Below, piece after piece: positions 16,081 to 58,943 of a stretch of DNA of 64,000 nt. Both the position numbers and the translations under genes were made by a program. Source of the stretch: Oligoflexia bacterium (GTDB taxonomy: Bacteria > Bdellovibrionota > UBA1018); the NCBI GenBank assembly GCA_014376785.1, contig JACMQW010000016.1:1-64000 (forward strand). Direction: 5' to 3'. Below the pieces are notes generated by a model. It made no database searches. It saw nothing but the letters and a program-made list of their open reading frames with translations, and was not told the DNA's origin. How positions within the stretch are numbered: the first letter of the stretch is position 1; every line of letters starts with the position of its first letter.

Positions 16081-17073
16081 TTACTGATTTAGAATATAAG
16101 CAAACATCAGAGGTGCCACGATCGTTGCGTCGCTTTCTACGATGTAACTCGGGGTAGTCACAGAAAGTTTTCCCCAGGTGATTTTTTCGTTCGGCACGGC
16201 TCCTGAGTAGGATCCATACGAAGTCGTGGAGTCGGAAATCTGGCAGAAATAGCCCCAAAGCCTGACGTCATCTTTTTCGAGATCTTGGCGAATCATCGGA
16301 ACGACGCAGATCGGGAAATCCCCCGCGATGCCGCCCCCGATTTGGAAAAATCCGATTGAATGATTTGCGGACACGCCGAGGTACCATTCCGCGAGCATGG
16401 TCATGTATTCGATTCCTGATCGCACGGTGTGAACGTTCTTCACTAACCCCTTGAGGCAGTAAGACGCGTACATGTTTCCGAGAGTCGAGTCTTCCCATCC
16501 CGGAACCACCATCGGCAGATTTTTTTCCGCAGCGGCAAGCAACCAGCTGTCTTTCGGGTCGATCTGATAATGTTCTTTAAATTTTCCCGACAGGAGTGCG
16601 CGGTAGAAAAATTCGTGCGGGAAGCAACGCTCGCCCTTCGCTTCTGCAGAATTCCACTCGTTTTCCATGATCCGCCAAATCTTGCGCATCGCCGCTTCTT
16701 CAGGAATGCACGTATCGGTCACTCGGTTTAAGTGTTTATCGTAGAGGCGTTGCTCGTCTTCTTTCGTCAAATCCCGGTAGTTCGGCACCCGCTCGTAGTG
16801 GTCGTGAGCAACCAGGTTATAAACATCTTCTTCTAAGTTCGCGCCGGTGCAAGAAATCGCGTGAACTTTTCCCTGGCGAATCATTTCCGCGAGGGAAAGA
16901 CCAAGCTCTGCCGTCGACATCGCGCCCGCAAGCGTGACCATCATCTTACCGCCGGAATCGATGTGCTTATTATAGCCCTCGACGGCGTCGATCATCGCCG
17001 CTGCGTTGAAATGCCGGTAATGATGCTTCATAAATTTCGAAATCGGGCCGAGGATTTTCGTCGATGCAGTCAT
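16081..17073 (-). CDS. Deoxyhypusine synthase-like protein
   Basis: About 330 residues of the deoxyhypusine synthase family: VTLAGAMSTAELGLSLAEMI, ISCTGANLEEDVYNL and GGGIAGDFPICVVPM are NAD/spermidine-site regions. NEKITWGKLS carries the lysine that in true enzymes forms the imine intermediate. Archaea and eukaryotes use this enzyme on eIF5A; bacteria lack eIF5A, and the bacterial homologues studied make homospermidine or similar polyamines, so a polyamine aminobutyltransferase role is likely. Start chosen at ATG 17073 because GCAGGAG lies 5 bases upstream. A reading frame 15 codons longer has no ribosome site. Confidence 0.83.
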   Translation of the reverse strand: MTASTKILGPISKFMKHHYRHFNAAAMIDAVEGYNKHIDSGGKMMVTLAGAMSTAELGLSLAEMIRQGKVHAISCTGANLEEDVYNLVAHDHYERVPNYRDLTKEDEQRLYDKHLNRVTDTCIPEEAAMRKIWRIMENEWNSAEAKGERCFPHEFFYRALLSGKFKEHYQIDPKDSWLLAAAEKNLPMVVPGWEDSTLGNMYASYCLKGLVKNVHTVRSGIEYMTMLAEWYLGVSANHSIGFFQIGGGIAGDFPICVVPMIRQDLEKDDVRLWGYFCQISDSTTSYGSYSGAVPNEKITWGKLSVTTPSYIVESDATIVAPLMFAYILNQ

Positions 17074-17206
17074 GGAGACTCCTGCTTCTCGTTTGAGAAG
17101 ACTGGTTTTGCCGTTCAAAGCCCACGCTCAAATCGCTGAATTCCGGCAAGGTAAAGTCGAAGCGGTGGGTCTGTTATAGAGAAAATCTGGGCTAGGTCAA
17201 TGGGAG

Positions 17207-17415
17207 TTGTCCGAATGAGGAGGGAGCAAAAAGTCCGTGAGGATGCTCCCGGCCATCCCTGGCCTGCCCGACCCGGCTCGTCGCATCCTTCAGTCACATC
17301 GTGTGACTGATAGCCCTTTAGGGCTAATGGCCTTTTCGAATATCCTATTCTCAAAGTGCGACTCCCAAGGGTAGTCACGCCTCACGGACTTTTTGCTCCC
17401 TCCTCATTCGGACAA
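17207..17415. repeat. Inverted-repeat element 1: 36-bp perfect arms around a structured core
   Basis: The arms at 17207-17242 and 17380-17415 are exact reverse complements over 36 bp. Inside are a 34-base block (17251-17284, GGCCATCC...CTCGTCGC) found again in element 2 at 32/34 identity, two small perfect hairpins (AGTCACA-TCG-TGTGACT at about 17292-17308 and TAGCCCT/AGGGCTA at about 17311-17326), and a second shared block starting TGCGACTC near 17357. The element lies between the divergent deoxyhypusine-synthase-like and GNAT genes. No transposase or reading frame is inside. Confidence 0.85.
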
Positions 17416-17533
17416 GTCGTATTTTCTAGGAAATACATGAGATCTCCATCACACCACCGCTTGCGTGGAGACCAAGCGCAGATGCCTCCGTGCGACGCTT
17501 GTTCAAAGCGCCGGATCCGTTTATGGGTCAGCG

Positions 17534-18112
17534 ATGGCGCTTGAATCATGGATGTACCGCGATCAATACGAGTTTCGAGTTCTAGACGATTTTAAGTCGG
17601 AGCTCCAATTCCAAGCGTTGGTGGACCTCTTACTGACGAATCCGCCGAGCGTTGATCCACTTTATAGCGCGGAAGAGAAGCAGCATCGGGATCGCCTCCA
17701 GGCCACTTCGCACTCGCTTGTGAACTTTCGATTAGCAGTCTATTCCGGATCGCAGCTCGTGGCGTTCACGCGCGCAATGCAAACGGACGGCGCTAATCTT
17801 CACATGGCGTTATCGGCAGTGCATCCCGATCATCAGCGAAAAGGAATTTACACCGAACTGGTTCGCGCAGTGCTCGCATTCGCGAAAGAGCAGGGGTTCC
17901 AAACCATCGACTCCAGCCACCGCGCCACCAACAATCCCGTGATCATTGCAAAACTCAGGGCCGGCTTCGTGATCAATGGCCTCACCCTCTCCGACGTCAT
18001 GGGTTGTCTCGTCAAGCTGACCTATTTCCACAACCCTACGAGACGAAAACTCATCGACGCGCGTGCCGGACTGTCCAGACCTGAAGGCGAACTCCGAGAC
18101 CTCTTTTTCTAA
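17534..18112 (+). CDS. GNAT-family N-acetyltransferase
   Basis: About 192 residues from ATG 17534. The central part has the acetyl-CoA-binding pattern of the GNAT fold: ALSAVHPDHQRKGIYTELVRAVLAFAKEQG, in which HQRKGIYTEL fits the Q/RxxGxG/A loop. Then come SSHRATNNPVIIAKLRAGF and a C-terminal strand. The acceptor is unknown. There is no strong ribosome site at 17534; ATG 17552 and a GTG at 17465 are alternatives. The gene is bracketed on both sides by the two related inverted-repeat elements, so it may travel with them or merely be insulated by them. Confidence 0.75.
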   Translation: MALESWMYRDQYEFRVLDDFKSELQFQALVDLLLTNPPSVDPLYSAEEKQHRDRLQATSHSLVNFRLAVYSGSQLVAFTRAMQTDGANLHMALSAVHPDHQRKGIYTELVRAVLAFAKEQGFQTIDSSHRATNNPVIIAKLRAGFVINGLTLSDVMGCLVKLTYFHNPTRRKLIDARAGLSRPEGELRDLFF

Positions 18113-18218
18113 AGAGGAAAGCAGGCTCACCGGAGCCGATAGCCACCCCGTCGCACTCGTTCCAGAAATCCCCAACGCCTCAAGACGCGAGATAAACGCT
18201 AAATGGTGGCTGCGCTCG

Positions 18219-18345
18219 AGATGGGCCTTTAGAAAAATATCCTTTCAATGCGAGTGCCCGTGCGAGTCGCAGGAAGCGACGAGCCGGGTCGGGAAGGCCA
18301 TGGATGGCCATCGCATTGAAAGGATATTTTTCTAAAGGCCCATCT
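18219..18345. repeat. Inverted-repeat element 2: 35-bp perfect arms around the shared core
   Basis: Arms at 18219-18253 and 18311-18345 are exact reverse complements over 35 bp and differ in sequence from the arms of element 1. The core, read on the minus strand, has the same 34-base block (18276-18309, two mismatches) followed by the TGCGACTC block, without the hairpin-containing insertion of element 1. It fills the convergent gap between the GNAT gene and yebC and reaches into the yebC stop codon, where it may act as a bidirectional terminator. Confidence 0.85.
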
Positions 18346-19060
18346 ACAGCGCAGTATAAATGCGGTGGACATCATCGTGGTCATCGATGTCCGAAAGAAA
18401 CTCAACCGCTTCTTTCTTCTGTTCATCCCCGAGCTCGACTTTGTTCTTCGCGAGAAAACTCATTTCAGACAATGTGATGATCCAACCCTGCGCGGTGAGC
18501 GTTTTATTCACGGCGTCCAGATCAGTCGGGTCACAGAAAAATCGTGCTCCCGTGGAACCCGCGGGAACATCTTCCGCCTCGAGGGCTTCGACATTTTGAG
18601 CACCCGATTCGATGGCGACTCCCTCGATATCGACGCCCGTTCCCGGAAGAGTGGCCTCGATCACTCCGAGGCGATCAAACATCCAACCGACAGCTCCCTG
18701 GCTTCCGAGCTGGCCTTTGCGGAATAAAACACGCAAATCAGACGCGGTGCGGTTTTTATTGTCGGTAAGGCACTCGACGATCACCGGAACTTGATGGGGA
18801 GTGAATCCTTCATAGACGATCGTTTCGTAATTCACCCCTTCTAGCGTCCCCGCGCCTTTTTTAATGGCGCGCTCGATCGTATCCCTCGGCACAGACTGCC
18901 TTCGCGCGGATTCAAGCGCTGCCCGGAGGCGGGAATTATTGTCGGGGTGGGGGTCACCGATCCTGGCGGAGACGATGATTTCTTTCACGAGCTTTCCGAA
19001 GATCGCTCCCCGTTTTGACGCGTTTGCTTGGCGTCCTGCATGTTTCCATTGTGCACCCAT
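18344..19060 (-). CDS. yebC: YebC/PmpR/TACO1 family protein
   Basis: About 238 residues. The start MGAQWKHAGRQANASKRGAIFGKL is the family N-terminus (usually MAGHSKWxN-type), followed by DPHPDNNSRLRAALESAR, KKGAGTLEGVNYETIVYEG and DNKNRTASDLRVLF, and a C-terminal ferredoxin-like part. Members act as transcriptional regulators and, more recently, as translation factors that help ribosomes through proline-rich stretches. The ATG at 19060 is preferred over 19066. Its start codon is only 24 bases from the divergent aldehyde dehydrogenase ATG. Its stop codon lies in the arm of inverted-repeat element 2. Confidence 0.92.
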   Translation of the reverse strand: MGAQWKHAGRQANASKRGAIFGKLVKEIIVSARIGDPHPDNNSRLRAALESARRQSVPRDTIERAIKKGAGTLEGVNYETIVYEGFTPHQVPVIVECLTDNKNRTASDLRVLFRKGQLGSQGAVGWMFDRLGVIEATLPGTGVDIEGVAIESGAQNVEALEAEDVPAGSTGARFFCDPTDLDAVNKTLTAQGWIITLSEMSFLAKNKVELGDEQKKEAVEFLSDIDDHDDVHRIYTAL

Positions 19061-19084
19061 AGGCATTTTTCTATCCTAGGCACC

Positions 19085-33494: not shown

Positions 33495-34223
33495 ATGTCA
33501 CTGTCCTCCTCCTCAAAGTTTCCAGTCGCTCTTCTCAGCCAAGCAAAGACGGGCGATGTCCTCGCAACGAGCGCCGAGGTCTGGCCCGACCTTTTGGTCG
33601 ACGCCTACGAGCACGGAATTTTTCCGTGGCCGAGCGGCGAAGAGGACCTCATCCCGTGGTGTTCACCGAAAAAACGGGCTCTGTTATTTTTCAACGAAAT
33701 GAAACTTCCAAAGTCTCTCTCCAAGGCAAAAAGAAAAGCGGAGGAGGACCCTTCGCTGGTCATCACCCGAGACACTGAATTCGGAGCAGTCATCCGAGCC
33801 TGCGCAAATAAACCCCGTCCTGGCCAGCCCGGTACCTGGATCACAAGCGCCATGATCGAAGCGTACGAAGGGCTCCACCAGATGGGGCGTGCTCATTCGG
33901 TTGAAGTTTGGCGCGTCGTGGACACCGGGAAAAATGATGGACCGAGTGCGGACGGTTTAGAAACCCGCCTGATCGCAGGAATCTACGGGGTGGATTGTGG
34001 TGGAGCGTTTTCTGCCGAAAGCATGTTCTATGAGGAACCCAATGCTTCGAAAATCGCCCTTCTATTTCTCATCGAGCGTCTGAAAGAAAAAGGGTGTGAG
34101 TGGCTGGATATCCAGCAACTCACACCCCATTTAGAAAAACTCGGAGCGAGGGAAATCAAACGCTCGGAGTATCTGCAGCTTCTTTCTCAGGCGCAGGCTT
34201 CGCAGGGCGGGAAGATTTTTTGA
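33495..34223 (+). CDS. aat: Leucyl/phenylalanyl-tRNA-protein transferase
   Basis: About 242 residues. It transfers Leu or Phe from tRNA to N-terminal Lys/Arg of proteins, creating the bacterial N-degron read by ClpS and destroyed by ClpAP. Family landmarks: LVDAYEHGIFPWPSGEED, IPWCSPKKRALLFF, GTWITSAMIEAYEGLHQMG, HSVEVW, GIYGVDCGGAFSAESMF and WLDIQQLTPHLEKLGA. Its 3' end overlaps the convergent clpA gene by 68 bases. Together with clpA and clpS this is a compact N-degron locus. Confidence 0.93.
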   Translation: MSLSSSSKFPVALLSQAKTGDVLATSAEVWPDLLVDAYEHGIFPWPSGEEDLIPWCSPKKRALLFFNEMKLPKSLSKAKRKAEEDPSLVITRDTEFGAVIRACANKPRPGQPGTWITSAMIEAYEGLHQMGRAHSVEVWRVVDTGKNDGPSADGLETRLIAGIYGVDCGGAFSAESMFYEEPNASKIALLFLIERLKEKGCEWLDIQQLTPHLEKLGAREIKRSEYLQLLSQAQASQGGKIF

Positions 34224-46467: not shown

Positions 46468-46517
46468 GAAAAAAAGAAAGAGGGGCCGGCTTGTCGCTGG
46501 GCCCTCTTTCTTTTTTC
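46468..46517. terminator. Bidirectional terminator between the SRPBCC frame and ettA
   Basis: Long inverted repeat: GAAAAAAAGAAAGAGGGGCC on the left, GGCCCTCTTTCTTTTTTC on the right, about 18 bp with one bulge, flanked by A and T runs suited to both strands. Confidence 0.8.
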
Positions 46518-49334: not shown

Positions 49335-49340
49335 AAAAAA

Positions 49341-49369
49341 GGCCCTCGAAGGAAAATCCTTCGAGGGCC
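49341..49369. terminator. Bidirectional terminator between the small gene and yceI
   Basis: Perfect 13-bp stem GGCCCTCGAAGGA/TCCTTCGAGGGCC with an AAA loop, preceded by six As and followed by five Ts. It serves both the 41-residue gene and the convergent YceI gene. Confidence 0.92.
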
Positions 49370-49402
49370 TTTTTCTGTTTGGGCATTCAAGCGGGTGGCA
49401 GA

Positions 49403-58730: not shown

Positions 58731-58853
58731 CCTGAAGAGCTCAGCGATCAGAAAATCGAGAATGCAGGGTAGAATGAATCTTTGAGAAAAGAGAAAATTC
58801 CGCTCTCTTGAGATTTCGTAGCCCAGTTCCGTTAGCTTAAATTTTAAAAAAAT

Positions 58854-58890
58854 AAAAAGCCCGGGTGACTCGGAGTCAACTGGGCTTTTT
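58854..58890. terminator. Terminator after the CsbD-family gene
   Basis: AAAAAGCCC/GGGCTTTTT outer stem with an inner TGACT/AGTCA stem, followed by ATTTTT. The A-rich flank means it may also serve the convergent HPt gene. Confidence 0.85.
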
Positions 58891-58943
58891 ATTTTTCCAG
58901 GGTTTCGAAAAACGATTTCAAATAAAGCGTTAAAATTAAAAGG

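Follow-up and report, generated by a model that had tools for sequence, protein, structure and literature searches.

Two inverted-repeat elements, E1 and E2, in the 64,000-nucleotide stretch of DNA analysed here (the window) belong to a dispersed, REP-like hairpin family, and fold-back template switching probably extends the arms of its members and maintains their perfect match. Members of this family have a structured core and perfect arms, are dispersed in the window genome (G000) and its relatives, carry local inverted copies and decayed outer copies, show concerted change between the arms, and differ in presence or absence at an orthologous site. Template switching would be the process of copying, and transposition the presumed means of spread. 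The family is apparently undescribed, as a description was not found in a limited search of open-access papers.

Structure of E1 and E2

E1 (17207–17415, forward strand) is bounded by perfect 36-bp arms (17207–17242 and 17380–17415), and E2 (18219–18345, reverse strand) by perfect 35-bp arms (18219–18253 and 18311–18345), as the first-pass annotation had reported. The E1 core (17243–17379, 137 nt) is multibranched. Its first hairpin, GGCCATCCCTGGCC (17251–17264), has a CATCC-type loop; its second (17280–17362) has a GTCGC/GCGAC stem enclosing a nested module (17290–17356) with hairpins at 17291–17309, 17311–17326 and 17338–17350. The E2 core (18254–18310, 57 nt) is a three-way junction on the reverse strand, with hairpin 1, GGCCATCCATGGCC, at 18296–18309 and hairpin 2 (CCCGGC-UC-GUCGC-UUCCU-GCGAC-UC-GCACGGG) at 18257–18288. 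A block of 39 nt with 92% identity is common to both cores in opposite orientation, bearing out the earlier description of a shared core, and the second common block is TGCGACTC.

A scan of 428 kb of the window genome for perfect arms of at least 16 bp with a spacer of 20–300 returned three cases, including E1 and E2, and mononucleotide shuffles of the same 428 kb returned zero. Fold z-scores against dinucleotide shuffles were −12.8 for E1 and −14.4 for E2. The location of E2 between convergent genes would suit a chance pair of terminators with a short common stretch. This reading can be dismissed, however: further copies in this genome and in relatives refute it, such arms were missing from the shuffles, and the core covaries (see below). 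The terminator tail is also missing, a pattern scan for intrinsic terminators (a GC-rich stem with a T-run) having been negative at both elements. Gathering-level Rfam matches were absent from the window, and an E-value search of ten loci was likewise blank for the elements; only matches far below threshold were returned, such as RF04062 at E3 (25.6 bits against a cut-off of 100). Ordinary short terminator-like hairpins with A/T-rich ends, unlike E1 and E2, are located in the window at 34087–34132, 46470–46516, 49336–49374 and 58848–58896.

Genomic context in the window

E1 and E2 bracket a GNAT acetyltransferase gene (17465–18112, forward strand). E1 lies upstream of the start of a deoxyhypusine-synthase-like gene (16081–17118, reverse strand), and E2 abuts the 3′ end of a yebC/TACO1-type gene (18344–19066, reverse strand), its yebC-side arm (18311–18345) starting with the yebC stop codon. 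Past a 2-nt mismatch, the pairing of the E2 arms resumes for 7 extra pairs (18210–18216 with 18348–18354), the segment CTGCGCT at 18210–18216 being an inverted copy of the yebC end. This outer copy comprises 7 nt only. The outer copy at E1 was weak (p about 0.02–0.04 in a shuffle test), and the outer-flank evidence at E1 was not relied on.

In G001, a genome of the same genus, yebC and the deoxyhypusine-synthase-like gene are separated by approximately 150 bp without E1, the GNAT gene or E2. The corresponding gap in G002, also of the same genus, is approximately 370 bp and contains a different palindrome; this imperfect palindrome at the orthologous site (G002:C348, L258) reads TTGGCAATTGTTCGCTTTTGTATCG... 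E1 and E2 may represent two insertions into the interval from yebC to the synthase gene, the GNAT gene having arrived between them. Neither a transposition event nor an excision product or a target duplication was observed, and the orthologous sites of the congeners were too diverged for the junction to be read.

A dispersed family with a structured core

Five further related cores (E3–E6) were found in the window genome. E3 adjoins tRNA-Met and has perfect arms of 21 bp (3-mismatch search); one helix of its core differs from that of E2, yet pairing is kept. With a covariance model of three cores, copies were recovered from further genera within the taxonomic family of the window genome. A second model, built on E1 and E4 (G000:C83), recovered more relatives, including a convergent pair on C51 of the window genome with perfect arms of 34 and 36 bp, and an E1-type element in G001 that starts where the RNase P RNA gene ends on its 3′ side (locus L335, G001:C15, 1090–1654).

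The first-pass annotation called the arms of E1 and E2 unrelated in sequence. Arms do differ widely between copies, but the segment TTTARAAAAATATCC is common to the arms of E2 and E3, E4 can be aligned to E1 through arms and core, and inner arms are homologous among sister copies. The extra insertion of about 75 bases that it noted in E1 is present but not unique: E4 contains a homologue, and so do elements in several related genomes, where the module recurs with compensatory changes. The idea that E1 is E2 plus a random insertion was rejected because the nested module recurs elsewhere. The nested three-hairpin module was also observed within short-armed (CCTCGGCGGC) elements at L337 and L341 (G003:C17 and C10), and may be common to different element types.

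Covariation of its pairs in 15 model matches shows the core to be a structured nucleic acid. Both sides had changed at 26 of 36 pairs, and 91.7% of cells paired, compared with 34–48% after sliding the partners, in an alignment that was fitted to the structure and whose rows include both model-building sequences.

The family was most fully surveyed in G003, which is from the same taxonomic family, with a core model built on 13 cores that were mostly chosen through their arms. This model gave 33 core matches below 1e-13, the next match being at 0.14. Arms were examined at 30 loci, 17 of them found by the core alone; the matches at C11, C9:42346 and C28:7946 are outside the arm count. Six close convergent pairs were present in G003, and others in G000 (C51 and E1/E2) and G001. 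Nearly all matches to a strict 18-mer core search of 58 relatives, allowing 2 mismatches, were without flanking arms. In a search with R1 of 291 genomes of the phylum under strict filters, matches below 1e-4 were confined to the family of the window genome. An exact pattern match was absent from viral contigs, and the matches in a loose pattern scan of contigs, which appeared to be chance GC-rich sequence, were discarded. The proposal that the core is a mobile or replicated module is partly supported: the core recurs with inverted arms in the window genome and its relatives, and is presumably mobile. Neither a core absent from the rest of the genome nor further copies bare of arms was the outcome, the core being present elsewhere and all 30 G003 copies examined having perfect inverted arms.

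Arm perfection and concerted change

Perfect arms in the 30 G003 elements examined were 31–76 bp long. All of the 900 innermost pairs (30 per element) were Watson–Crick pairs and none was G–U, whereas, by a table count, G–U pairs accounted for about 5% of paired cells among the related cores in the 15 model matches. This difference argues for DNA-level copying in the arms. No differences were found in 1228 bp of inner arms, while the outer copies had diverged by 15–20% where alignable.

The inner arm is the element's own, homologous among sister copies and diverging in concert. The sister copies L283 and L284 had four arm differences, all mirrored, and one core difference. L287 and L290 had cores with 96% identity and inner arms with 71% identity, and all of the arm differences were mirrored because each arm pair is perfect. 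In one pair of tRNA-Pro loci, the core was oppositely oriented, a possible core inversion or else an independent insertion. Arms were imperfect in one G001 pair and in E4; therefore, the upkeep is not universal and can lapse.

An ordinary MITE or REP/BIME family would have terminal inverted repeats recognised by a transposase, its copies being recent and hence perfect. The dispersal of the copies agrees with this, as do inverted pairs resembling REP dimers, the absence of the elements from the orthologous site in a congener, Y1 transposases in related genera, and two copies with identical arms in G004. However, we consider this explanation improbable. Terminal inverted repeats conserved among copies, as expected of a MITE, were not found: the identity of the inner 30 bp between G003 arms (median 51%) was near that of shuffled arms (46%), whereas cores shared 71%. 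The copies are also not all recent, because the outer copies are 15–20% decayed while the inner arms are perfect. The candidate explanation that all copies are young was rejected for the same decay, which points to upkeep of the arms and not to youth alone. Moreover, a family with truly fixed arms in the same genome (ACTCGCGCCGGAGTG...) bears little resemblance to these elements. A cognate Y1/HUH transposase flanked by copies, as in REP/BIME systems, was not found in the window genome or its two congeners.

A fixed-arm contrast element in G003 (ACTCGCGCCGGAGTGTGTTTGGAAAGTCC, 89-bp spacer) had four copies that were near-identical in arms and core (L182 7292–7440, L182 8223–8369, L236 4955–5103 and L238 17625–17771). 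The two G004 copies (L036, G004:C10, 152–266 and 1603–1717) have identical 26-bp arms and a 63-bp core, and are about 1.45 kb apart.

Inverted copies of adjoining genes within the arms

In nine G003 elements, an arm overlapped the 3′ end of the adjoining tRNA by about 7–26 nt. The tRNAs concerned were Pro (twice), Tyr, Val, Ser, Arg, Lys, Phe and Met. The far arm thus contains an inverted copy of the end of that particular tRNA. At E3 and at the tRNA-Leu element of G001, a tRNA segment of 24–27 nt was inverted on the far side of the element (shuffle p ≤ 0.0005). Inverted copies of coding ends extended beyond the perfect arms for up to 68 nt, with an identity of about 80–85%. Flank-to-flank inverted homology exceeded the 95% level of cross-element controls in 16 of the 30 G003 elements and was at, above or close to the 99% level in 12, against controls that include homologous pairs and whose maximum is thereby inflated. 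The C10 locus of G003 has two abutting units, in the order gene 1, element A, inverted end of gene 1 (68 nt, approximately 80% identity), copy of the gene 2 end (approximately 85%), element B and gene 2.

The arms thus combine sequence that belongs to the element with inverted copies of the gene alongside. The suggestion that palindromic ends are captured by the core, or built by it, out of local sequence was largely right, and right in substance, as both tRNA 3′ ends and coding ends are copied; arms are not purely local, however, because the inner arm belongs to the element.

Position at gene ends

By a reading of the listed loci with crudely called ORFs, a same-sense gene or tRNA ended near the 5′ arm in 23 of the 30 G003 elements, generally within 30 nt. 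Among the exceptions, the gene end was on the other side at L269 and L280, L274 and L268 were at gene 5′ ends, and three of the 30 were uncalled. In 1.2 Mb of G003, 8 of 19 tRNAs had an element. Template switching alone does not explain the sense bias at gene ends, which could reflect an RNA function.

The bias is the best argument for a functional RNA at gene 3′ ends, acting in termination, processing or stability, in which selection at the RNA level would keep the arms paired and dispersal would be secondary. The element at the 3′ end of the RNase P RNA in G001, the frequency at tRNAs and the strong covariation of the core helices point the same way, and the first-pass annotation had itself offered an RNA whose arms must pair. 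We nevertheless regard this as rather unlikely. The zero G–U count in 900 inner arm pairs, set against the share in the cores, argues for copying of DNA rather than selection for pairing in RNA. In addition, the far arm often contains the complement of a tRNA 3′ end and would compete with tRNA folding, the terminator scan was negative at E1 and E2, and E1, L274 and L268 are at gene 5′ ends.

Fold-back copying as the probable mechanism

In the favoured explanation, fold-back template switching, an element consists of a multi-hairpin core with CATCC/TTCCT-capped stems and its own inner arms, residing mostly at gene 3′ ends and usually in the sense orientation. The inverted repeat would grow by copying of the adjacent coding end or tRNA 3′ end onto the far side: the nascent strand would fold at the core hairpin, copy its own arm and return to the template. 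Repeated events of this kind would hold the proximal 30–75 bp or so of the arms perfectly complementary. Published work describes template switching as a process that removes differences between arms and flips the spacer (PMC8604942), and that gives rise to hairpins and preserves them (PMC8794818). Spread would be by transposition, possibly through a Y1/HUH-type enzyme acting on single-stranded hairpins.

A bolder and more tentative possibility is a new class of mobile hairpin that makes terminal inverted repeats for itself out of host sequence. Its core would join a 3′ end at a gene boundary, fold back and prime synthesis over as much as about 100 bp of the flanking gene, and later rounds of replication would make the arms perfect again. 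Abutting units (gene1-A-gene1′/gene2-B-gene2′) could then be two capped ends that were joined, which, if true, would also account for the GNAT gene caught between E1 and E2.

Perfect compensatory changes in the stem of a hairpin tend to be taken as a sign of selection on RNA structure. In the present family, a single genome supplies about 30 parallel examples of arms that change on both sides together, and decayed outer copies indicate that the events are not recent. Template switching at the DNA level, as a source of hairpins and of compensatory changes, becomes directly testable in bacteria. The element would also be one whose ends derive in part from the neighbouring host gene and which favours positions at the 3′ ends of tRNAs and genes.

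Comparison with known systems

Integron attC sites are located at gene 3′ ends in the sense orientation and keep their structure while the sequence varies; they have conserved R/L boxes at their outer ends and an associated integron integrase. The present elements are like attC sites in their gene 3′ end location, sense orientation and conservation of structure over sequence. Unlike attC, their apex is conserved and their outer arms are variable, and they lie beside single core genes and tRNAs instead of cassettes.

Quasipalindrome template switching has in common with this family homogenised arms and perfect hairpins newly derived from nearby sequence; it also inverts spacers, as may have happened here at the tRNA-Pro loci (PMC8604942, PMC8794818 for the known process). 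Changes of several bases that are mirrored between the arms, a trait of quasipalindromes, were found at L283/L284 and L287/L290. Published descriptions treat the process as sporadic mutation at short repeats of any kind, whereas here one dispersed, structured core is associated with arms tens of bp in length. In mitochondrial genes of Nematomorpha, long inverted repeats have been reported that are perfect and whose arms evolve in concert (PMC6649704). Those palindromes lie inside coding sequence, unlike the present elements, and are not known to share a dispersed core.

REP/BIME/REPIN sequences with RAYT (TnpA-REP) transposases resemble the family in being short palindromes scattered between genes, frequently as inverted pairs, with short conserved hairpin-tip loops; the 33 core matches of G003 likewise included six close convergent pairs, and Y1/HUH transposases occur in several genomes related to that of the window. 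Unlike the known REP/BIME classes (PMC3733652), the 30 G003 copies as listed had no apparent constant tetranucleotide tag (GTAG/CGTC), and their conserved core is multibranched. Their long arms also differ between copies and copy host genes. The Y1 transposase domain PF01797 was not detected in the window genome or its two congeners (G001 and G002). G003 had seven PF01797 matches, only two or three of them with a nearby short-armed double hairpin. The RAYT-like HUH genes of G003 at L176 (7077–7619), L242 (13625–14215) and L305 (1396–1941) have a short-armed double hairpin with core-like architecture upstream.

TIRYT (TIR-associated tyrosine transposase) repeats are long, sometimes double palindromic inverted repeats that occur beside Y1 genes and are also dispersed (PMC3733652). 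Known TIR families have a family-specific sequence, whereas the arms here vary and include local sequence, and linkage to a Y1 gene was observed in few cases only. Membership of either the REP/RAYT or the TIRYT group is not claimed, because the constant tag was not seen and PF01797 was not detected in the genus of the window genome; in layout, REP/RAYT and TIRYT repeats are the nearest known systems.
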